This document shows positions 51,304 to 63,995 of a DNA stretch of 64,000 nt, piece by piece. A model generated the notes under the pieces. The model made no database searches. It saw only the letters and a list, made by a program, of their open reading frames with translations, and was not told where the DNA came from. Numbering within the stretch: position 1 is the stretch's first letter; each line of letters begins with the position of its first letter. This stretch comes from Arthrobacter sp. AFG7.2. GTDB taxonomy: Bacteria > Actinomycetota > Actinomycetes > Actinomycetales > Micrococcaceae. The position numbers and the translations under genes are program-made. The stretch is taken from contig NZ_PJMB01000001.1 of NCBI RefSeq assembly GCF_002892835.1, forward strand, positions 620,001 through 684,000, given 5' to 3'.

Positions 51304-52305
51304 CTAGGGAGCCAGCAGTGCGTGGACGCGGCGGAGCCTGGCCAGCCACCAGTCCCGGCGTTCCGGCGATGCCGCGTACTTCTCAAGCAGCCCGGCGTCG
51401 GCGGAGACGTCGCGGAGGCGGATGGCGCCGTCGTCGGACACCAAGGGATCCACGCTGATGTCCGATTCGAAGAGGGACACCGTGCCCAGCCCGCAGGCAT
51501 AGGGCAACTCAGGGAGCGCGGCCGCCAGGGCAAGGCCTGCGCGGATGCCCACCGAGGTGTCCAGCGCAGAACTGACGACGGCGGGAAGCCCGGCCTGCGC
51601 CACGATCTCCAGGGCGCGCCGCACTCCCCCAAGGGGCGCCACTTTGACCACGAGTAGGTCTGCTGCGCCGGCCCGCGCCACGCGCAGGGGGTCGGATTCC
51701 TTGCGGACGCTCTCGTCCGCGGCGATCAGCACCGGGGTTGCGGCGGACCGCATTGCCCGGCGGACCTCGGCCAGGCCCTCGATGGTGGGGACCGGCTGCT
51801 CTGCATACTCGAGCCGGACCTCCGCCAGCCGCGTCAGGGCCTCAACGGCGGATGGCACGTCCCAGCCGCCATTGGCGTCCACCCTGATGGCGGCCTCCGG
51901 CAGGGCGGAACGGACGGCGGCGAGGCGGGCGGCGTCGTCGTCGAGGGTCTGGCCGCGCTCGGCCACCTTGACCTTAACGGCGTCCACCCTGCCAAAGCGT
52001 GCCAGAACCTCCGGCACCCGTTCTGCCGGGACGGCCGGAACGGTGGCGTTCACGGGAATCAGCGAACGCAGCGGCGCGGGGAAGCCGGACCAGGCGGCCT
52101 CGATTGCGGCGGCAAGCCAGCGGGAAGACTCGGCGTCGCCATACTCCGGGAACGGGCAGAACTCGCCCCAGCCGGCCGGCCCCTGCAGCAGCAGGGACTC
52201 GCGCTCCATGATGCCCCGGAACTTCACCCGCATGGGCAGGCTCACCACGTGGGCGCCGGCCAGCAGCTCCTCCAGCACGGGCAGGGGACGCGGGTCAGTA
52301 GGCAT
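51304..52305 (-). CDS. menC: o-Succinylbenzoate synthase
   Basis: Protein of 333 residues, enolase superfamily, actinobacterial MenC type. Lysines in AVKVKVAERG and VVKVAPLGG, and metal ligands in IRVDANGGWD, LEYAEQP and IAADES are present. It dehydrates SHCHC to o-succinylbenzoate. ATG 52305 is chosen: TACAGT precedes it by 6 nt, fitting a leaderless transcript, and the domain starts there. The upstream open frame to 52524 overlaps the ArsR promoter and is rejected. Confidence 0.92.
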   Translation of the reverse strand: MPTDPRPLPVLEELLAGAHVVSLPMRVKFRGIMERESLLLQGPAGWGEFCPFPEYGDAESSRWLAAAIEAAWSGFPAPLRSLIPVNATVPAVPAERVPEVLARFGRVDAVKVKVAERGQTLDDDAARLAAVRSALPEAAIRVDANGGWDVPSAVEALTRLAEVRLEYAEQPVPTIEGLAEVRRAMRSAATPVLIAADESVRKESDPLRVARAGAADLLVVKVAPLGGVRRALEIVAQAGLPAVVSSALDTSVGIRAGLALAAALPELPYACGLGTVSLFESDISVDPLVSDDGAIRLRDVSADAGLLEKYAASPERRDWWLARLRRVHALLAP

Positions 52306-52311
52306 GGACCC

Positions 52312-52317
52312 ACTGTA
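52312..52317 (-). promoter_or_regulatory. Candidate -10 box for leaderless menC
   Basis: TACAGT on the minus strand, 6 nt before the ATG at 52305. Confidence 0.45.
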
Positions 52318-52347
52318 CAAGCGGGAACCGGCAGCCCCTTCCAATGC

Positions 52348-52363
52348 ATATCCATATGGATAT
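52348..52363. promoter_or_regulatory. Perfect palindrome ATATCCATATGGATAT, probable ArsR operator
   Basis: A 16-bp perfect palindrome 11 nt upstream of the ArsR start, in the gap shared with menC. ArsR-SRPBCC operons are usually self-repressed through such sites. Confidence 0.65.
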
Positions 52364-52374
52364 ATGATGAGCGC

Positions 52375-52716
52375 ATGGCACGGGCAGCAACCACCACTGA
52401 CGCGTTCAACGCGGTAGCCGAGCCGCGCCGTCGGGAAATCCTTGACGTCCTGACCCAGGGCGAACGGCCGGTGGGGGAACTCGTGGAGATCCTGGGCCTG
52501 GTCCAGCCCCAGGTTTCGCGGCACCTGCGTGTACTGCGCGAGGTGGGTGCCGTGGAGGTGCGGGAAGAGGGCCGGCAGCGGCTCTACAGCCTCAACCCGC
52601 AGGCGCTAAAGCCCATCCACGACTGGGTATCGGGCTACCAGCACCTCTGGGAGGAACGCTTCGAGCTGCTGGATGGGGTTCTAGCCGGCCTCCAGCAGGA
52701 AGACACGCAGGAGTAA
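52375..52716 (+). CDS. ArsR family transcriptional regulator
   Basis: Protein of 113 residues. The winged helix covers almost all of it: FNAVAEPRRREILDVLTQGERPVGELVEILGLVQPQVSRHLRVLREVGAVEVREEGRQRLYSLNPQ. No metal-binding cysteine cluster is seen, so it is the non-metal subgroup that pairs with SRPBCC proteins. ATG 52375 follows the palindrome directly. The SRPBCC gene starts 12 nt after its stop. Confidence 0.9.
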   Translation: MARAATTTDAFNAVAEPRRREILDVLTQGERPVGELVEILGLVQPQVSRHLRVLREVGAVEVREEGRQRLYSLNPQALKPIHDWVSGYQHLWEERFELLDGVLAGLQQEDTQE

Positions 52717-52728
52717 AGGAGCAGGGCA

Positions 52729-53229
52729 ATGACGCGGACAGGCATCTTGGGAATGACTTTTCCCAGCGACCGGGAAATCCTCCTCACCCGGACCGTCAAC
52801 GCACCCCGGCAGCTGGTCTACAGGGCCTGGACCACCCCCGGGCTCGTCAGGCAGTGGTGGGCAGGCCGGCGCGGTGAGATGACCGTTGCGGAAATGGACT
52901 TCCGGGTCGGCGGCGCGTGGCGGTACGTGATGGTGGCGCACGGCGGGTTCGAGGTGGCCTTCCATGGCACATACCGGGAGATCGTGCCGAACGAGCGGAT
53001 TGTCCACACCGAGATCATGGAGACGCCGGGTCCGGCGCCTGACAGCGACGAAGGGGCTGTGGTCAACACCGTCACCTTCAGCGATGCCGACGGCGGCGCC
53101 ACCCTGGTCAGCATCCGTACCGACGCGGGCAGCAAGGAAGTCCGGGACCTGATTGCCCGGTCCGGCATGGAAGGCGGCGTGCGCGAGCAGTTCGAACTTC
53201 TCGAGGAACTCGCACAGAACCCGGGTTAA
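52729..53229 (+). CDS. SRPBCC protein of the Aha1/ActivatorHsp90-like type
   Basis: Protein of 166 residues. LLTRTVNAPRQLVYRAWTTPGLVRQWWAGRRG, DFRVGGAWRYVM, FHGTYREIVPNERIVHTEIME and the C-terminal helix MEGGVREQFELLEELAQ are the family pattern. These proteins are usually co-expressed with an ArsR repressor, as here; the ligand or target is unknown. GGAG lies upstream of the ATG. Confidence 0.9.
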   Translation: MTRTGILGMTFPSDREILLTRTVNAPRQLVYRAWTTPGLVRQWWAGRRGEMTVAEMDFRVGGAWRYVMVAHGGFEVAFHGTYREIVPNERIVHTEIMETPGPAPDSDEGAVVNTVTFSDADGGATLVSIRTDAGSKEVRDLIARSGMEGGVREQFELLEELAQNPG

Positions 53230-54218: not shown

Positions 54219-55604
54219 TCACCCGGCGTTGAGGCGGGTGAGGAGCAGGGCCTCGGCCAGGATGGCATTCTCGAAATCACCCAGGTGAATCGACTCGTTG
54301 GCCCCGTGGGCACGGGAGTCCGGATCCTCGGCCCCGGTAATGAGGATGTCCGCCTCCGGATACAGCTTGTTCAGGATGTTCACGGCCGGGATCGAACCGC
54401 CAACCCCCATGCAGACAGAAGGCACGCCCCACGACTCTTCCATCGCCGCCAGCATGGCCTGCGCGGCAGGTGCCGAAGCGTCTCCGGCGAACCCCTCTGT
54501 CCGCCCACCAGGGGTAAACGTCACTTCGGCACCGAAGGGCGCGTGAGCCTCCGCATGCCGGCGCACCGCCTCCATGGCCGCGGCGGTGTCGCTGTCCGGT
54601 GCCAGGCTCAGGCTGAACCTGGCCCGGGCCACCGGCAGCAGCGTATCGGAGGACAACGCCACGCTTGGGGCGTCCACTCCGATGATGGCCAGCGCAGGCT
54701 TGGTCCACAGCCGCGACGTCAGAGTTCCCGAGCCGGCCAGCCTTACCCCCGGCCGGACCCCCGAGTCGGCCCGGAACTCAGCCTCGGACAGCGGCGGCCC
54801 CGGATCATCAGATGCGGCCAGGCCCTCCACGGCAACGCTGCCGTCGTCGTGGTGAAGCGTGGCGAGCAGCCTGGACAGCGCGGCGACGGCGTCCACCAGC
54901 GGACCGCCATACGTTCCCGAATGGAGGGCGTGGTCCAGGACGCGGACCTCGATGGTCCCAAGGACCAGCCCGCGGAGGCTGGTGGTCAGTGCCGGGACGC
55001 CTACCTTCCAGTTCCCCGAGTCGGCGACTACCAGGACATCGGCGCTGAGCAGGCCAGCGTGCTGCTGCAGCAGCGACGGAAGGCTCGGTGAGCCGGCTTC
55101 TTCCTCGCCGTCGATGAACAGGGTCACGCCCACGCCCAGTTCATCCCCCAATACCCGCAGCACATTCCGGAATGCGGCCAGGTGCAGCAGCACGCCCGCT
55201 TTGTTGTCCGCCACTCCCCTCCCCCACAGCCTGCCGCCCCTGGCGACAGCCTCAAACGGCGGACTGTCCCAGAGTTGGAGGTCACCGGCCGGCTGAACGT
55301 CGTAGTGCGCATACAGCAGGACGGTCGGCCGGCCAGGCTTTGCCGGCCAACGGCCCACCACGGCCGGCGCGCCCGGGGAACCATCCGGGCGGGGAGCCTG
55401 GAGGATGTCGACGTCGGCAATCCCCGCTTCACGGACCAGGCCGGCTACCTGCCCGGCTGCTTTGTCCAGCTGGGAGGGGTCAAAGGCTTCCCAGGCCATC
55501 GCCGGAATCCGGACCAGCCCGGTGAGTTCCCCGACAGCGGAAGCGAAGTCCGCCTGCACGGAACGGCGCAGTTCGGACAGAAGGCGCGGGTCCTTCGCCG
55601 CCAT
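54219..55604 (-). CDS. M20 family metallopeptidase (dipeptidase-like)
   Basis: Protein of 461 residues, dinuclear Zn peptidase. Metal ligands are in LLYAHYDVQP, GVADNKAGVL and FIDGEEEAGSPS, with DSGNW and the late GAEDPDSRAHGANESIHLGD completing the set. A lid/dimerisation domain lies in the middle (HSGTYGGPLVDAV). It would hydrolyse a dipeptide or amide. ATG 55604 starts 4 nt after the asnB stop, so it is part of that operon. Its substrate may be the product of the neighbouring ligase and amidotransferase. Confidence 0.9.
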   Translation of the reverse strand: MAAKDPRLLSELRRSVQADFASAVGELTGLVRIPAMAWEAFDPSQLDKAAGQVAGLVREAGIADVDILQAPRPDGSPGAPAVVGRWPAKPGRPTVLLYAHYDVQPAGDLQLWDSPPFEAVARGGRLWGRGVADNKAGVLLHLAAFRNVLRVLGDELGVGVTLFIDGEEEAGSPSLPSLLQQHAGLLSADVLVVADSGNWKVGVPALTTSLRGLVLGTIEVRVLDHALHSGTYGGPLVDAVAALSRLLATLHHDDGSVAVEGLAASDDPGPPLSEAEFRADSGVRPGVRLAGSGTLTSRLWTKPALAIIGVDAPSVALSSDTLLPVARARFSLSLAPDSDTAAAMEAVRRHAEAHAPFGAEVTFTPGGRTEGFAGDASAPAAQAMLAAMEESWGVPSVCMGVGGSIPAVNILNKLYPEADILITGAEDPDSRAHGANESIHLGDFENAILAEALLLTRLNAG

Positions 55605-55608
55605 CCTG

Positions 55609-57387
55609 CTACCCCACTCCGTGGCGCTGGAGCCACATTTCCAGGAGGGCGAACTGCCACAGGACATTGCTGTTCACCGCTGTGCGCTGGGTGTTGGGGT
55701 CAGCCAGCAGCGAGTCGATGTAGTCCGGCCGGAAGATGCCCCGCTGCTTGGCTTCGGGTGCGTGCAGGGCGTCGCGGACCATCGAAATGAACGGTTCCTC
55801 AAGGTGCCGCAGGGCTGGTACGGGGAAGTATCCCTTGCGTCGGTCCACCACGGCAGCGGGAAGCATCTGCCGGCCCAGGTCCTTCAGGATGCCCTTGCCG
55901 CCCTGGGATGCCTTGAGCTCCGGCGGGCAGGCCGCGGCGAGTTCCACCAGTTCATGGTCCAGGAACGGCACGCGGGCCTCGAGCCCCCACGCCATGGACA
56001 TGTTGTCCAGCCGCTTGACCGGATCGTCCACCATGAGCAGGTGGGTGTCCAGCCGGAGCACGGCGTCCAGGGCAGTGTCGGCGCCGGCCTCAGCCAGATG
56101 GGACGCCAGGACCTGGCTGCTCACGTCGGGCCCGGTGAACCATTCCGGCTCCAGGATCCGGAGGAGCTTCTCGTGGCTGTGGTCAACGAACGAAGCAGTG
56201 AAGGCTGACTGGGCTTCGGACCGGCCAACGCCTGCCAGCGGCTGGTGGTAGCCGTAGCCGCCAAAGACTTCGTCCGCGCCCTGGCCGCACTGCACCACTT
56301 TCAGGTGCTCGGTGACGGTCTTTGAGAGCAGGTGGAATGCCGTGACATCGTGGCTGGACATGGGCTCGGACATGGCCTCCACGGCGTCACCGATGGACGG
56401 TGCGAACTCCGAGGTGCTCACGTGCAGGCGCTCATGCCGGGTGCCGAATTCGCGGGCAATCAGGTCCGAGTACTCGAACTCGTTTCCCGAGTCCCCACCG
56501 GCGCCGTCAAAGCCGATGCTGAACGTGGACAGCCCGTGCTGCCCCTCCTCCGCAAGCAGGGCCACCAGCAGGCTCGAATCCAGTCCTCCGGACAAAAGGA
56601 CGCCCACCGGCACATCCGCAACCATCCGCCGTCGTACCGCCGTCCGCAGGGCATCCCGGACGGCGTCCTGCCAGTCGCCTGCTGACCAGCCGGCGTGCTC
56701 GTCGCGGCGGGTGTAGGAGGGCTTCCAGTATTCGCGGTCGTGCCAGGTGCCGTCCGCGCGGACGGTCCGGATGGTGGCGGCCGGCAGCTTGCGGATCCCG
56801 CTGAGGATGGTCCGCGGTGCCGGGACGATCGAGTGCCAGCTCAGGTAGTGGTGCAGGGCCACCTCATCAACGGACGTGTCGATCCCGCCCGAGGCAACGA
56901 GCGCCGGCAGGGTTGAGGCGAAGCGCAGCCGTCCTTGCAGCTCCGCCACATAGAGCGGTTTGATGCCCAGCCGGTCACGGACCAGGAGGACCTCGCAGCG
57001 GCGGGAATCGAACAGCGCGATGGCGAACATCCCCACCAGGTGGTGGACAAAGTCTTCGCCCCATTTCCGGTAGGCCTTGAGGATCACTTCCGTGTCGCTG
57101 GTGGAATGGAACGTGAACTCGGGTTCCAGCTCGCGGCGCAGTTCCTTGTAGTTGTAGATGCACCCGTTGAAGGTGACAGCCAGGCCGCCGTCGTCGAGCA
57201 TGGGCTGGGTCCCGCCGGATGAGAGGTCGATGATGCTGAGCCGCTGATGCCCCAGCGCAACCCAGCCGGCATGCCAGGTTCCCCTTCCGTCGGGTCCCCG
57301 CGATGTCATGGCCCCCATCATGTCCAGAACCGCCTCCTGGGAGGCCGTTCTCCCGTTGAAGGCGATCTCGCCGGCTATTCCGCACAT
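55609..57387 (-). CDS. asnB: Asparagine synthetase-type glutamine amidotransferase
   Basis: Protein of 592 residues. The class II glutaminase has nucleophile Cys2 (MCGIAGEIAF), and SRGPDGRGTW, NGCIYNYKELRREL. The ATP-pyrophosphatase synthetase has PP-loop VGVLLSGGLDSSLLVALL. SSHDVTAFHLLSKTV and GQGADEVFGGYGYH are close to the N-acetylglutaminylglutamine amidotransferase branch as I recall it, which amidates an osmolyte dipeptide. No Ngg synthetase is nearby, so that product is not established. Gaps are 24 nt to the decarboxylase and 4 nt to the peptidase. Confidence 0.9.
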   Translation of the reverse strand: MCGIAGEIAFNGRTASQEAVLDMMGAMTSRGPDGRGTWHAGWVALGHQRLSIIDLSSGGTQPMLDDGGLAVTFNGCIYNYKELRRELEPEFTFHSTSDTEVILKAYRKWGEDFVHHLVGMFAIALFDSRRCEVLLVRDRLGIKPLYVAELQGRLRFASTLPALVASGGIDTSVDEVALHHYLSWHSIVPAPRTILSGIRKLPAATIRTVRADGTWHDREYWKPSYTRRDEHAGWSAGDWQDAVRDALRTAVRRRMVADVPVGVLLSGGLDSSLLVALLAEEGQHGLSTFSIGFDGAGGDSGNEFEYSDLIAREFGTRHERLHVSTSEFAPSIGDAVEAMSEPMSSHDVTAFHLLSKTVTEHLKVVQCGQGADEVFGGYGYHQPLAGVGRSEAQSAFTASFVDHSHEKLLRILEPEWFTGPDVSSQVLASHLAEAGADTALDAVLRLDTHLLMVDDPVKRLDNMSMAWGLEARVPFLDHELVELAAACPPELKASQGGKGILKDLGRQMLPAAVVDRRKGYFPVPALRHLEEPFISMVRDALHAPEAKQRGIFRPDYIDSLLADPNTQRTAVNSNVLWQFALLEMWLQRHGVG

Positions 57388-57411
57388 GGTGCTGTCCTCG
57401 TTCCTTGCGAT

Positions 57412-58890
57412 TTACTGCGATCGGTGCGGTTCTTCCCGAACCACCCTGATGGTTTTGAGCGTTGGGTCAGCGGGATCCGGCAGGACCATGCCCGCTTCCA
57501 CCCCGCTCCGGAGGTAATCGATGGCGGCTTTATTGATCCGCTCGCCGGGCAGCAGGAGCGGGATTCCCGGCGGGTAAGGCGTGGCCATCTCGGCGGCGAT
57601 GCGGCCGGGGGCCTCTTCACACGGGATGACTTCCACCGGCCCGAAGAAGGCGTCCCGGGGCAGCATGACCGTCTCCAGGTAGAGCTCTTCCTCATCCGGA
57701 ATGACGACGGCGGGTGGTCGGGGAAGGTCAGGTGCAGCTTCGGTAAGTGCGCGGAGTCCCGCGAGGAGGCGGTCCGCGGTTTCCTGGTCATCCGATACCG
57801 AAATAACGGCTTCCGTGCGGCGGTGGTCTGTGGTGCCCATGTCGATGCGGCAGTTTTCCCGCAGCCAGTCCGTGGCCTGGAACCCGCTGATGCCAAGGTT
57901 CGAGACGTCAATCATGATGTGCTGGATGTCCAGGTCGTGGGAGGCCTCGGCGTGCACAAGCTCCTCCTCGAGGACGTGGAGGCCGGGGAGGGCGTCGATG
58001 TCCCGGCGGAGCCCTCGCGTCAGCTCCAGCGCGTACTCGATCATGGCTTTGCCGTCCTGCACCATTTGCCGGCGCCAGCCGTCCATTGCCGCATACAGGA
58101 GCGTGTTGGCGCTGGTGGTGGAGAGGACGTCGGCGCACTGGTTCAGGCGGACCGGGTCCACCAGGTTGCCCTGAAGGTGGAAGACGGAGCCCTGCTCAAA
58201 GCCCAGCCCCATCTTGTGCACGCTGACCACGCAGATGTCGGCCCCGGCAGACATGGCCCAGGTGGGGGTGTCCTGATGGAAGGGCAGCTGCGCGCCCCAG
58301 GCTTCATCCACAATCAGCGGCTTGCCACGTTTATGGCAAATTTCGGCGATGGCCTCGATGTCGGCGCACGTGCCGTAGGGGGTGGGGCTCACGATGAGGG
58401 CAGCCGAGGCGTCCGGGTACCGCTGCCACATCTCCTCCACAACTTCCGGTGACGGCGGATGCGAAAGCTTCAGTTCGTTGTCCCACTTAGGTTTGATCCA
58501 TCGCGGCTGCAAGCCGGAAAGCACCAGCCCGGAAACCACGGACTTGTGGGCGTCCCTGCTGATCAGGAGTTCGCCCTCGCCGCGGGTCACGGCCAGGATG
58601 GCGGCCTTGATGGACAGGGAGCTGCCGCAGGTGGTGAAGAAGGCCATGTCCGCACCCACGGCGTCGGCCATCAGCTCCTCGGCTTTGGAAAGGTAGCCGT
58701 TGGAGGACTGCCGGTCGTCCAGCCCTGAGGAGGCAACGACGTCGGACTTGAAGGCTTGCTCCCCCAGCACCTCCAGCACCCGGGGGTCAACGCCGCGGCC
58801 CTGGCGGTGGGCGGGCGGCGTGAAGCCGTAGCGCTCCAGTTTCTGGTGTTCAGCCAGGGCATCAAGCACCGGCGCTTCATTCTGGTCCAT
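57412..58890 (-). CDS. Orn/Lys/Arg decarboxylase-type PLP enzyme
   Basis: Protein of 492 residues, fold type I PLP enzyme of the SpeA/CadA-like group. It begins with RYGFTPPAHRQGRGVDPRV. FFTTCGSSLSIKAAILAV, ISRDAHKSVVSGLVLSG, LIVDEAWGAQLPFH and PLP lysine SVHKMGLGFEQGS are present, and the C-terminal Orn/Lys/Arg domain has TPYPPGIPLLLPGERI. It would release agmatine, cadaverine or putrescine from an amino acid; the substrate cannot be read from sequence. It lies between the carboxylate-amine ligase (21 nt) and asnB (24 nt). Confidence 0.88.
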   Translation of the reverse strand: MDQNEAPVLDALAEHQKLERYGFTPPAHRQGRGVDPRVLEVLGEQAFKSDVVASSGLDDRQSSNGYLSKAEELMADAVGADMAFFTTCGSSLSIKAAILAVTRGEGELLISRDAHKSVVSGLVLSGLQPRWIKPKWDNELKLSHPPSPEVVEEMWQRYPDASAALIVSPTPYGTCADIEAIAEICHKRGKPLIVDEAWGAQLPFHQDTPTWAMSAGADICVVSVHKMGLGFEQGSVFHLQGNLVDPVRLNQCADVLSTTSANTLLYAAMDGWRRQMVQDGKAMIEYALELTRGLRRDIDALPGLHVLEEELVHAEASHDLDIQHIMIDVSNLGISGFQATDWLRENCRIDMGTTDHRRTEAVISVSDDQETADRLLAGLRALTEAAPDLPRPPAVVIPDEEELYLETVMLPRDAFFGPVEVIPCEEAPGRIAAEMATPYPPGIPLLLPGERINKAAIDYLRSGVEAGMVLPDPADPTLKTIRVVREEPHRSQ

Positions 58891-58911
58891 GCGGCCTCCT
58901 GATTCCGATGT

Positions 58912-60048
58912 TTACGAGTTCTGTTTGCTGGTCAGCAGTGACGGGTCGGCCACGTCCCGCAGCAGGGTGGCCGGGAGGCTGCTGACCTTGACGGCGTCGG
59001 CGATCACCCCGCAAAGGCTTCCGGTATTGGCGAAGGCTGTGCGCTGGCGGTCTGCCCCGGTCCCGCGGGCAAGAAGCTGGAACAGCAGGAATTCAACAGC
59101 GCTGAGCTCGCCCTGCTCCCCGAGCACCGGCTGGATGTGCTCCAGCAACGCCATGACCACCTCGAAAGCAGGCCGGGGCTGATTGGTCTGCGGGTCTATC
59201 AGCTCGGCGCCAAGCCCAAACCTGCCCGCCTGCCAGGAAGCGAGCCTCAGCTGCAAGGCCGAGACCGGCGCGGGTTCTTTGCCCCGGCGCCAATCCCGGG
59301 ACGCCGTCTCCGCCAGACCCCGTACCAGGGCGGCAAGGAGGACGGCGTCATCCGCGTGGAGGCATACGTCCCCTACCCGGATTTCCACGGTCGGATGCCG
59401 GTGGCTGAGCCGGGCATCAAAATAAATCTGTCCCTTGTCCAGCAGCACTCCGGAACCGAGGATCTCCTCCACCTGCGCGTGGTACGCCTGCGCGGAACCG
59501 AAAATCTCGCAGGGACCGGCTGTTGGCCACCTGTTCCAGGCCTGGGAGCGGTAGCTCGCATAGCCGGTGTCCACGCCGTTGCTGAACGGGGAATTGGAGG
59601 TCAGTGCCATCAGAACCGGGAGCCAGATCCGGATCCGGTCCAGGATGGCAACGCCTTCCTCGTCCGACTCAACCTCCACATGCACGTGGCAGCCGCAGGT
59701 CAGCTGTTCCACGGCGGTCAGGCCAAACCGTTCGATCATCCGCTCGTAGCGCTGCCCCGGGGTGGCCGTGGACCGCACAGGCAGCGGCGAGGTTGCCAGC
59801 GCCACTGAACGGGCTCCGACGAAACGGGCTGTGGCATCGGCACTCAGGCGGCGCCTGGTGATGTCCTGCGCCAACTCCTCGAGGTTTGTCCGCGGAAGTG
59901 TGCAGGTCTCGATCTGTTCCTGCTTCATTTCGCTGCTGAGGCCATCGTCGTCGCTCAGGCTGTCCAGCACTTCACCCAGCGGCACTGCATGTCCGTCGAC
60001 GTTATCGACGATCAGGAACTCTTCTTCTATACCTACCCGACGCATCAT
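58912..60048 (-). CDS. Carboxylate-amine ligase, YbdK/GCS2 family
   Basis: Protein of 378 residues. RRVGIEEEFLIVD is the ATP/Mg-binding signature of the GCS2 glutamate-cysteine ligase-like family, followed by QIETCTLPRTNLEEL, CGCHVHVEVESDEEGV, RSQAWNRWPTAGPCEIFG and RHPTVEIRVGDVCLHADD. It joins a carboxylate, usually glutamate gamma-carboxyl, to an amine. ATG 60048 is chosen by position before the signature; 60045 and 60081 are alternatives. It leads the tight operon with the decarboxylase, asnB and M20 peptidase. Confidence 0.88.
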   Translation of the reverse strand: MMRRVGIEEEFLIVDNVDGHAVPLGEVLDSLSDDDGLSSEMKQEQIETCTLPRTNLEELAQDITRRRLSADATARFVGARSVALATSPLPVRSTATPGQRYERMIERFGLTAVEQLTCGCHVHVEVESDEEGVAILDRIRIWLPVLMALTSNSPFSNGVDTGYASYRSQAWNRWPTAGPCEIFGSAQAYHAQVEEILGSGVLLDKGQIYFDARLSHRHPTVEIRVGDVCLHADDAVLLAALVRGLAETASRDWRRGKEPAPVSALQLRLASWQAGRFGLGAELIDPQTNQPRPAFEVVMALLEHIQPVLGEQGELSAVEFLLFQLLARGTGADRQRTAFANTGSLCGVIADAVKVSSLPATLLRDVADPSLLTSKQNS

Positions 60049-60185
60049 CGTAAGCTCGCACGTTCCGGCGATTCCGCGCATCGGACCCAGCCTGACGCAT
60101 GCGGGAAACTGCTGTTATGTAATCCAGCCACATCGCTCCTCGGTAAGAAACCGGGGGGCTTATGCTTAACCTCCGCTACTACAGC

Positions 60186-60204
60186 ATAGTAAGCATGCTT
60201 ATTT
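60186..60204. promoter_or_regulatory. TAAGCATGCTTA palindrome upstream of ligase operon
   Basis: ATAGTAAGCATGCTTATTT contains a perfect 12-bp palindrome (60190-60201), ~140 nt upstream of the ligase start in the 222-bp gap. It is related to the motifs at 3839, 14418 and 16472. Confidence 0.45.
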
Positions 60205-60270
60205 CCTGGTCGCAAGCCAAAATGCCGCGGACGGCATGCACGGAGGCCACCGTCCTGGGGTGCGGCACCA

Positions 60271-61170
60271 TCAGAAGGCGCTGGGCGGAACCTCAATATC
60301 CGCCGTCGGCACTGCTGAGGCAGCGAGGGCGGAAGCAGCGATGTGGGCGGAGGACAGCTGTGCTCCGCTCCCCTGCGCCCCGTTCACCTGGGAAACAGCG
60401 GGCGACGGCGGCGTGGCCTGCCACAGGCGGGACAGCAGCTTCCCGCGGGCTGCTTCGACGAATCCGCGGAACAGTCCGAAGTCTTCAGGGAGTTCTTCGG
60501 GGTGCCACTGGATGCCCATGGCGAAGGTGTTAGCAGGGTATTCGATGGCCTCCACCACCTGGTCCTCCGTCCAGGCAGCCGCAATCAGGCCTTCTCCCAG
60601 CTTGTCCACGGCCTGGTGGTGGGACACGGGCACCGGGCCCGGGGTGGCGCCAATCAGCTGCTCCAGCCGGGAACCCTGGCGGATTTCCACCTGGATCCTG
60701 TTGAACTCATATCCGCCCAGCTGGTAGTGGCCGGCACCGATGACGTCCGGCAGGTGCTGGTGCAGGGTGCCGCCGAGGGTCACGTTCAAAAGCTGTTCGC
60801 CCCGGCAGATGCACAGGAGCGGAATGTCCTGCCGGATTGCTTCACGGATCAGGGCCTGCTCCCACGCATCCCGTTCGGGCCGGGGCTTGTCAGTCTGGGC
60901 GTGGGCTTCCTGCCCGTAGAGGGCCGGATCAACGTCCCAGCCGCCGGGAATGACCAGTCCGTCCAGCCGGCTGACCAGCACTTCGATGACTCCGGGGACT
61001 GCCGGCTGGGGCGGAAGAAGGGTGGGTACGCCGCCTGCAGCGATGATCGGGGCGAGGTAGGTTTCGGGCAGGAATGCAGCACTGACAGTGCCGCATCCGT
61101 CGGTGCCCGCCTGCTCCAGATAGGTGGTGAGCCCGATGATGGGCTTTACTGCGGCGTCGGTTGTTTCCAA
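60271..61170 (-). CDS. Gamma-glutamyl-gamma-aminobutyrate hydrolase-like class I amidotransferase
   Basis: Protein of 299 residues, PuuD-like peptidase C26 family. The nucleophile is in PLLCICRGEQLLNVTLGGTLHQ, with the His-Glu pair in AMGIQWHPEELPE; IPGGWDVDPALYGQ and PVPVSHHQAVDKLGEGL are family motifs. It hydrolyses gamma-glutamyl amides such as gamma-Glu-GABA. TTG 61170 is chosen because GGAGGAA lies 5 nt upstream. The C-terminal ~50 residues are an Ala/Ser/Pro-rich extension. It precedes the ligase operon on the same strand. Confidence 0.88.
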   Translation of the reverse strand: METTDAAVKPIIGLTTYLEQAGTDGCGTVSAAFLPETYLAPIIAAGGVPTLLPPQPAVPGVIEVLVSRLDGLVIPGGWDVDPALYGQEAHAQTDKPRPERDAWEQALIREAIRQDIPLLCICRGEQLLNVTLGGTLHQHLPDVIGAGHYQLGGYEFNRIQVEIRQGSRLEQLIGATPGPVPVSHHQAVDKLGEGLIAAAWTEDQVVEAIEYPANTFAMGIQWHPEELPEDFGLFRGFVEAARGKLLSRLWQATPPSPAVSQVNGAQGSGAQLSSAHIAASALAASAVPTADIEVPPSAF

Positions 61171-62865: not shown

Positions 62866-63354
62866 CTATGGGCAGTAAATTTTGCCGTTGCTGGTGTCAT
62901 GCCACAGCACTATGTCCGACGATGCCTGCGTCTGGTCTGAGTATGTTGCCGTGACCCGGACGGTCAGCCGCCCTTGGTAGAAGCTGTCCCTTATGATCTG
63001 GGACGCCCCCGTGAGCGTGATTGACCCAGTGGATCCCGCCACACTGACTTCTGATCCTGAGTAAGCGGTTGCGATGCCGCCGTTCGCTTGGACTGCACCA
63101 TACGTGAGCGCAGCGATGCTTCTCGGAGCGGAGACGCTAAGGGTCGCGGTCTTCTGCGGGCTGTCGTTGAGGCAGGTCACTGGGGACACCGCCGGGCCGG
63201 GCCAGTTTGCTGCAGCGGTGACCGTCATTGTCGCCGTCGCGCTTTGCTGCCACAACGCGGACGCGGATGCTCCGCCAAAGCCGAGCAGCACAGTCAGGAC
63301 AAAAGCACCTATTGCGGCGGAAGCACCTGGAAGCCCCTGGAACCGCCGCATCAT
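62866..63354 (-). CDS. Exported protein, probable SipW substrate
   Basis: Protein of 162 residues. Signal peptide with a hydrophobic core ~14-33 (AAIGAFVLTVLLGFGGASASALW), then WQQSATATMTVTAAANWPGP, typical of TasA/camelysin-like alternate-signal exported proteins. The mature part is Ser/Thr-rich with beta-strand pattern and two cysteines (VTCLN, KIYCP). ATG 63354 overlaps the signal peptidase stop by 4 nt (ATGA). Function beyond export is not readable. Confidence 0.75.
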   Translation of the reverse strand: MMRRFQGLPGASAAIGAFVLTVLLGFGGASASALWQQSATATMTVTAAANWPGPAVSPVTCLNDSPQKTATLSVSAPRSIAALTYGAVQANGGIATAYSGSEVSVAGSTGSITLTGASQIIRDSFYQGRLTVRVTATYSDQTQASSDIVLWHDTSNGKIYCP

Positions 63355-63995
63355 CCGGCCCCTGCCACGGGGTCCTGCCGCCGCGACGTCCGCACCGACT
63401 TCAAGACCAGAAGCGCACCGTAACCCATGAGGCAAATGGCCGCGACGGTGGTCCATAGCCCGCGGTCGGCATTGCCCAGGGCATTGGCCAGGAAGCCAAC
63501 GTAGGGAACGGCATAGAACAGCTTGCCTTTGACCTGGATTTCACGGACGGGCTCAGTATCGGTGGCGCCGTTGTTGTCACCCTTGGTGATCAGTGTCTTT
63601 TCACCTGTTTGGGTGGCGCCGAAGCCTACGACGCGGTGGGTCTCAACCTCTGGCCGTCCCGAGTAAAGCTGGAACGTGATCACATCGCCGTACTTGAGTT
63701 CGCTGAACGGCGCCGGCTTCATCACCAGGAAGGTGCCGGGCGGAAATTTGGGTGCCATGGAGTTGGTCAGCACGGTGTACGTGTGCGACGCCGTCACCAC
63801 GGGCACCACAATCAGGACCGATGCAGCGAACAGCGCAACGAGCATTGCGGCCAGGCTGGCCATGCGTCCCAGGAGTGCCAGTGCGTGCGCACCGGTGCTT
63901 TTCTCCTTCGAGTACGACGGCGATGCAGCCTTCGGTGCGTCCGGAACGGAAGCGGCGCCTTGAGTCAGCGGGCGTTCGGTAAGGTCAGCAGCCAT
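63351..63995 (-). CDS. SipW-type signal peptidase I
   Basis: Protein of 214 residues, ER/archaeal-type serine signal peptidase with membrane helices near both ends. Ser nucleophile in TNSMAPKFPPGTFLVMKP, His general base in ETHRVVGFGA in place of lysine, and TKGDNNGATD are the three SipW motifs. The N-terminal ~40 residues are polar. ATG 63995 is 5 nt from the window edge, so an upstream start cannot be excluded. It overlaps the exported-protein gene and starts a locus that continues beyond the right edge. Confidence 0.88.
   Translation of the reverse strand: MAADLTERPLTQGAASVPDAPKAASPSYSKEKSTGAHALALLGRMASLAAMLVALFAASVLIVVPVVTASHTYTVLTNSMAPKFPPGTFLVMKPAPFSELKYGDVITFQLYSGRPEVETHRVVGFGATQTGEKTLITKGDNNGATDTEPVREIQVKGKLFYAVPYVGFLANALGNADRGLWTTVAAICLMGYGALLVLKSVRTSRRQDPVAGAG

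Follow-up and report, generated by a model that had tools for sequence, protein, structure and literature searches.

A GCS2-type ligase in place of Ngg beside AsnO in an Arthrobacter operon predicted to make an amidated glutamyl compound

Introduction

The closest described counterpart of the locus analyzed here is the NAGGN system, AsnO-Ngg-M42, for which PMC8070244 cites Sagot 2010. According to PMC8070244, Ngg acetylates one glutamine and attaches a second, AsnO amidates the end, and the NAGGN genes of P. aeruginosa are controlled by a MarR-type repressor. The classical order AsnO-ngg-M42 was also seen in Azospirillum. In a Micromonospora carrying asnO and ngg, NAGGN is a major metabolite according to PMC8146288, which fits Ngg as the NAGGN route. 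The osmolyte ABAGG of Micromonospora was considered as a related system and set aside as unrelated, being an anthranilate-glycine-glycerol ester according to PMC10513789.

Two further systems share parts with the locus. The gamma-glutamyl-putrescine (Puu) pathway is alike in its gamma-glutamyl ligation and its PuuD-family hydrolase, while the Orn/Lys/Arg decarboxylases (LdcC, AdiA and the short S. aureus form 2x3l) are alike in fold family, PLP-lysine and PYPPG motif. The locus also resembles the amidoligase clusters predicted by Iyer et al. in 2009, in which GCS2 or ATP-grasp ligases reportedly stand near Asn-synthetase-like genes and peptidases; these clusters are said to have been predicted to produce unknown peptides.

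The present locus resembles the NAGGN system in its amidotransferase family, in its compact operon with a hydrolase and in an apparent link to stress-type regulation. In contrast, it lacks Ngg, has a GCS2 ligase, carries an M20 rather than an M42 peptidase and contains an additional decarboxylase (OKR).

Results

Gene layout

The window, a stretch of 64,000 nucleotides on contig C10 of the Arthrobacter sp. AFG7.2 genome (4.05 Mb), carries five genes on the minus strand in the order PuuD, GCS2, OKR, AsnO, M20. The features are as follows.

60271..61170, minus strand: PuuD-like Peptidase_C26 hydrolase (PF07722, 208.9 bits), with a TTG start at 61170 after GGAGGA
60186..60215, minus strand: promoter-like boxes TTGCGA and TACTAT, 18 nt spacing, flanking the palindrome (by-eye reading)
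60190..60201, no strand assigned: operator-like 12-base perfect palindrome TAAGCATGCTTA, with genus conservation and genome-wide copies
58912..60081, minus strand: GCS2, a YbdK-type carboxylate-amine ligase; alternative start possible at 60048
57412..58890, minus strand: OKR, a short Orn/Lys/Arg-type PLP decarboxylase of 492 aa (PF01276, 164 bits; PF03711, 52.9 bits)
55609..57387, minus strand: AsnO, a NAGGN-family amidotransferase with a class-II glutamine amidotransferase and an Asn synthase domain (TIGR03104)
54219..55604, minus strand: M20 hydrolase (NF005914, 526.9 bits against a cut-off of 300); the open reading frame is extendable to 55667

The original prediction, five genes of named families on one strand with the last four 4–24 nt apart, agrees with the frames, the family matches and the measured gaps: 21 nt between GCS2 and OKR, 24 nt between OKR and AsnO, and 4 nt between AsnO and M20, given an M20 start at 55604. 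Its view of all five as a single cluster stands for the closely spaced GCS2-OKR-AsnO-M20 and probably not for PuuD, which lies 189 nt from GCS2, upstream of TAAGCATGCTTA. PuuD is probably a separate unit, upstream of the conserved site of the four-gene operon.

Subfamily models refined several assignments. GCS2 was placed in the YbdK-type subfamily by NF010041 (468.2 bits, cut-off 332) and TIGR02050 (286.2 bits, cut-off 176.4), and its solved relative is 1r8g, YbdK. M20 has cytosolic non-specific dipeptidases as its closest solved relatives. PuuD scored 101.7 bits against the equivalog PRK11366, far under the cut-off of 266. Within the cluster the ligase is GCS2 and not a glutamine-synthetase-like PuuA, and no Puu oxidase or dehydrogenase was found among the identified neighbours.

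Elsewhere in the window, positions 52249–53229 (plus strand) hold a short regulator frame that by eye resembles ArsR, with an AHSA1-family gene behind it. Two frames at 62866–63995 (minus strand) resemble by eye a signal peptidase and an exported SipW-type partner.

AsnO without Ngg

AsnO matched the NAGGN equivalog TIGR03104 end to end with 868.2 bits (cut-off 570.1) and is the only match above that cut-off in the host genome. It is 53.5% identical to the Sinorhizobium meliloti 1021 protein. The likeness to NAGGN clusters noted earlier is thereby borne out, and the earlier term glutamine amidotransferase, right as to family, is narrowed to AsnO. The expected absence of the Ngg synthetase was also found: a profile search of the host genome with TIGR03103 gave a top match of 22.7 bits against a cut-off of 569. 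The peptidase within the cluster is of family M20, not M42. Because two hallmarks of the NAGGN system, Ngg and a clustered M42, are missing, the locus was classed as a variant of NAGGN-like synthesis.

Eighteen AsnO positions separate the genus AsnOs from Ngg-linked AsnOs, each group being at least 90% uniform. Positions 380–382, right behind the GADEVFGGY block, read YHQ in the genus versus WYP in Ngg-linked proteins; WYP is retained in 9 of 10 other GCS2-linked AsnOs. As the genus rows are closely related, the genus-specific residues may largely reflect descent alone.

GCS2 and Ngg beside asnO across genomes

AsnO was present in 46 of 396 genomes of the phylum. The first set comprised 47 genomes, namely 45 AsnO carriers (the window's genome excluded) and two of the window's genus. 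Ngg was found in 32 of them, above the curated cut-off in 30, and it adjoined asnO in 31 of these 32; in G380 the two genes lie on separate contigs. Of the 15 Ngg-less genomes, 12 had a GCS2 gene no farther than 5 kb from asnO; none of the 32 with Ngg did (Fisher p = 9e-9, relatedness ignored). The three Ngg-less exceptions were G009, where the cluster is broken, G334 and G112. Three GCS2s of family f31, counted as linked, were weak matches of 42–44 bits (cut-off 21), and the one in G273 reads as two pieces.

In family f18, probably Streptomycetaceae, AsnO was present in 37 of 200 genomes. Thirty-three of the AsnO genomes were absent from the first set, 32 without Ngg and one with it; in the latter, Ngg adjoins asnO and GCS2 is not nearby. 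From listed coordinates, GCS2 lay within 5 kb of asnO in 26 of the 32 Ngg-less genomes, including G760, where it sits behind the S9 gene and is more like unlinked GCS2s. The remaining six were G621, G637, G666 (5.9 kb), G754 (12.7 kb), G631, whose contig stops 0.9 kb upstream of asnO, and G635, whose asnO match is partial.

In the window's genus, AsnO was found in 28 of 198 genomes. Among 25 further AsnO genomes of the genus, none had Ngg and 18 had GCS2 in the cluster.

When the first set, family f18, the genus and the window's own genome were pooled, 57 of the 73 examined AsnO carriers without Ngg had a GCS2 gene no more than 5 kb from asnO, against 0 of the 33 with Ngg. In the other 16 Ngg-less genomes no GCS2 was seen within that distance; contig ends explain some cases (G517, G631) and not others, and the sample included incomplete genomes (G600, 78%; G474, 82%; G479, 83%). 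Conservation across actinobacteria, on which the original prediction was to be judged, thus holds for the pairing of GCS2 with AsnO, while the full five-gene form was seen only in the window's genus.

No GCS2 relatives were found in viral contigs. The host genome carries two further GCS2 genes about 7 kb apart (G000, C1:51217 and C1:58982; L200), and in the GCS2 tree the first of these clusters with the AsnO-linked copies from L031 and L033.

Repeated pairing and gene architectures

In the GCS2 tree (59 rows), the label "beside AsnO" needs five changes, at least three of them forced by well-supported branches. The linked GCS2s comprise a clade of the genus, a pair with L031 and L033, a clade of families f18 and f52, a long-branch row of f55 and a very divergent pair of f31. 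The AsnO tree, made with the quick method from 69 rows, has at least two switches between the Ngg and no-Ngg states. Exchange of Ngg and GCS2 beside AsnO is therefore recurrent.

Many rows in both trees are close relatives. The AsnO tree omits the short or broken L036/L198, L199 and L135, and the GCS2 tree omits the fragments L077 and L038/L184. Loci fetched twice contribute one row each (L028/L177, L029/L179, L030/L181, L034/L186, L032/L192 and L033/L194).

The architectures vary among families. The order is GCS2-AsnO-S9 in f18; a single frame with GCS2 and a circularly permuted ATP-grasp, then AsnO and S9, in f52; a divergent GCS2, ATP-grasp, AsnO and DUF1028 in f31; and GCS2-AsnO, with no hydrolase recognised, in f55. 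L080 shows the f31 arrangement minus GCS2, and L086 has only AsnO and S9. In one set of 12 f18 loci, S9 follows AsnO in 11, that is, in all but the locus with Ngg. A hydrolase is thus often found downstream, M20 in the window and S9 or DUF1028 in other lineages.

The single-frame form upstream of AsnO, a two-ligase protein, was seen in L084, L133, L134, L204 and L205. Two named Streptomyces plasmids were viewed: that of Streptomyces fungicidicus encodes a glutamate-cysteine ligase, a NAGGN amidotransferase and an alpha/beta hydrolase, with an adjacent OsmC gene, and that of Streptomyces NBC_01276 has AsnO and a peptidase, GCS2 being absent from the stretch viewed. Five Ngg-type loci (L076, L079, L081, L107, L142) have a PuuD-like gene about 2–5 kb from asnO on the opposite strand; in two of them, L076 and L079, the genes on either side of it resemble by eye a glutamine-synthetase-like ligase, an aldehyde dehydrogenase and a short-chain dehydrogenase.

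The OKR-M20 pair in the genus

The genus comparison covered 29 asnO loci (26 fetched, plus L089, L091 and the window). All five genes, as near-full-length matches, occurred together in 14 of these, the window included. OKR and M20 were both present in 16 loci, both absent or reduced to remnants in nine, and otherwise broken in three (L091, L184, L198); L199, which starts within asnO, was excluded from the promoter and OKR/M20 counts. In L036/L198 the OKR and AsnO frames are broken, possibly through an assembly fault. As an accessory pair, OKR and M20 mostly share the same fate, either both retained or both gone.

GCS2 and AsnO are retained without OKR and M20 in L174, L176 and L185, and likewise in other families. 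In L191 and L195–L197, AsnO is accompanied by PuuD and a nitrilase-family gene, and the stretch yielded no match to GCS2, OKR or M20. PuuD is nearby in 26 of the 29 genus loci and a nitrilase-family gene in 14, the window having none of the latter. In Okibacterium (L031), an OKR-M20 unit (90% and 72% identical) is separate from an M20-GCS2-AsnO unit (GCS2 43–44%, AsnO 63%), as if the OKR-M20 pair were independently mobile.

OKR belongs to the Orn/Lys/Arg decarboxylase family by its two domains, PF01276 and PF03711, and its SVHK PLP-lysine motif, and it retains PYPPG. In contrast to the LdcC/AdiA/2x3l type, it has 492 aa, and the AsnO-linked proteins read TTSA where the three aligned solved relatives read TSP. 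TTSA occurred in all 14 readable rows counted as AsnO-linked, among them two near-copies (L034/L186) and the OKR of L031, about 8.5 kb from asnO; the TTSA region is missing from the linked copy of L091. Unlinked OKRs had TTSP or STSP in 12 rows (L008/L035 being near-copies); the row of L011 read TTSS, and five plasmid relatives also had TTSP. Judged by these alignments, the AsnO-linked OKRs form a distinct clade, and our guess is that TTSA in place of TTSP may mark an altered substrate.

A second OKR (68–70% identical) adjoins menC in some asnO-less members of the genus (L008, L010, L035) and carries TTSP, not TTSA. In L091 (16665–18137) such a menC-type copy occurs in a genome that also has the asnO cluster.

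Among the five plasmid OKR neighbourhoods, two lie near stress sigma factor genes, one of them also near an Hsp20 gene, one lies near GCS2, one near neither, and one is unannotated. These surroundings hint at a stress role of the OKR-type decarboxylase that would be independent of AsnO. The relatives concerned on Rhodococcus and Streptomyces plasmids (L233, L234, L235) stand near GCS2 or SigB/SigF/SigG genes, once with Hsp20.

The palindrome and its copies

The palindrome sits between PuuD and GCS2, upstream of GCS2-OKR-AsnO-M20. In 28 assessable asnO loci of the genus it was exact in 24, had one mismatch in three (L184, L195, L196) and two mismatches in one (L192), and it preceded the AsnO unit regardless of the first gene. 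L174, which has two GCS2 genes, carries an extra exact copy at the start of the second.

The host genome contains eight exact sites, with 0.014–0.035 expected and none for the reversed control. The seven others lie on its contigs C7, C9, C15, C18 and C20 (L224–L229). Their neighbours include genes for a PRC-barrel/DUF2382 protein, a LapA-domain protein, a pyridoxamine-oxidase-like protein (PF16242) and, behind the gene of a CBS-domain protein, a nitrilase-family protein. The copy at C18:2046 lies about 75 nt ahead of the start of a MarR regulator gene. Opposite the MarR gene stands that of an Ala-rich repeat protein, LEA-like by eye and without a Pfam match. Several neighbours belong to no known family, and at two of the places no family was recognised.

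We read the genes near these copies as a candidate stress-type regulon with a MarR member, and we infer that the MarR protein may bind TAAGCATGCTTA. The stress connection of the original prediction gains from these copies, which adjoin seemingly stress-type genes and the MarR gene. In a drought-stressed Arthrobacter strain, Helios, which may or may not carry the cluster, compatible-solute synthesis was not induced in the transcriptome, according to PMC9608346.

No copy within one mismatch occurred in 52 scanned loci (51 outside the genus, 48 of those with asnO), which rules out TAAGCATGCTTA as a general actinobacterial AsnO operator; two exact matches within L069–L108 are the sites of L089 and L091, both from the genus. 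Away from asnO, variants with one mismatch were found in the genus loci L035, L036/L198, L090, L091, L092, L190 and L193. In L035, L036, L090, L091 and L092 such a variant lies about 1.5 kb upstream of the menC-linked OKR. A literature search, mostly without full texts, found no paper on a GCS2-AsnO pathway or on TAAGCATGCTTA as a bacterial operator.

Discussion

We assign a probability of about 0.5 to the four genes forming an operon under stress control whose product, an amidated glutamyl compound, acts as a compatible solute or protectant. On the best reading, the predicted product would be an amidated gamma-glutamyl compound assembled along the lines of NAGGN, GCS2 taking the part of Ngg. 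In this scheme, whose substrates, product, step order, regulator and stress induction are all predicted, GCS2 would activate a glutamate carboxyl with ATP and couple it to an amine-bearing acceptor, which is Ngg's bond-forming job in the NAGGN pathway. Recycling of the product once stress ends would fall to the hydrolases M20 and PuuD, joined in relatives by a nitrilase-family enzyme. The operon would belong to a stress regulon through a regulator that binds TAAGCATGCTTA; the simplest candidate is the MarR protein whose gene follows another copy of the site.

The nature of the product would depend on the acceptor. With glutamine or glutamate as acceptor, the result would be a gamma-glutamyl amide whose low net charge suits a compatible solute; with an OKR-derived amine, it would be a cationic conjugate. 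OKR with M20 may act as an accessory module, providing the acceptor or tailoring it. A role of OKR as acceptor maker is possible, although the core pair does not need it, and OKR has no fixed place in the proposed scheme. The original prediction of an amine made first, then joined and amidated is not supported in that form, because it requires OKR and the GCS2-AsnO pair survives without OKR and M20.

The alternative nearest to that idea is gamma-glutamyl-polyamine metabolism, in which GCS2 would glutamylate a diamine produced by OKR, with possible amidation of the alpha-carboxyl by AsnO and hydrolysis by PuuD and M20, so that the product would be a polyamine conjugate and not an osmolyte. OKR does adjoin GCS2 with PuuD nearby, and an OKR relative in Rhodococcus koreensis adjoins a GCS2 gene in a stretch viewed that lacks AsnO. 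We nevertheless regard this reading as unlikely: GCS2 and AsnO persist where OKR is missing, PuuD falls well under its equivalog cut-off and lies upstream of the operon palindrome, and TTSA in place of TTSP suggests a changed OKR substrate. Ordinary NAGGN synthesis, with the Ngg step performed by a very divergent enzyme elsewhere in the genome, is less probable again; it accommodates the full equivalog match of AsnO, but not the wide gap between the top Ngg match and its cut-off, nor the presence of GCS2 by asnO in Ngg-less genomes from several families.

Slightly more doubtful still is that the neighbours share no pathway and are held together by position in the genus. Gene content does differ within the genus, but the GCS2-AsnO pairing is repeated in separate lineages, the spacing is 4–24 nt, OKR and M20 are lost jointly, and a single conserved site lies upstream. 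A thiol or ergothioneine pathway, with GCS2 making gamma-glutamylcysteine, is suggested by the family name, glutamate-cysteine ligase family 2; the idea was rejected because of the EgtA score (TIGR03444, 35 bits against a cut-off of 370.8). The top GCS2 matches are instead YbdK-type subfamilies, and such a pathway, the least credible of the four, has no place for AsnO.

Returning to a GCS2-dependent route to an amidated glutamyl compound, we tentatively propose, somewhat short of an even chance, a second widespread actinobacterial route to amidated dipeptide-like solutes. GCS2, alone or with a circularly permuted ATP-grasp, would have repeatedly replaced Ngg by AsnO's side; Arthrobacter would have added a repurposed OKR, and its product, a gamma-glutamyl amine or amino acid in alpha-amidated form, would represent a new class of stress metabolite governed by a MarR-type stress regulon with TAAGCATGCTTA as its mark.

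If true, this would be an osmolyte pathway that retained its amidating enzyme while the enzyme forming the bond was replaced more than once. GCS2 enzymes without an assigned substrate would acquire a partner, AsnO, and a regulatory setting. Genomes annotated with a "NAGGN amidotransferase" that lack Ngg may well produce no NAGGN, and soil actinobacteria would have a new family of nitrogen-rich protective metabolites.
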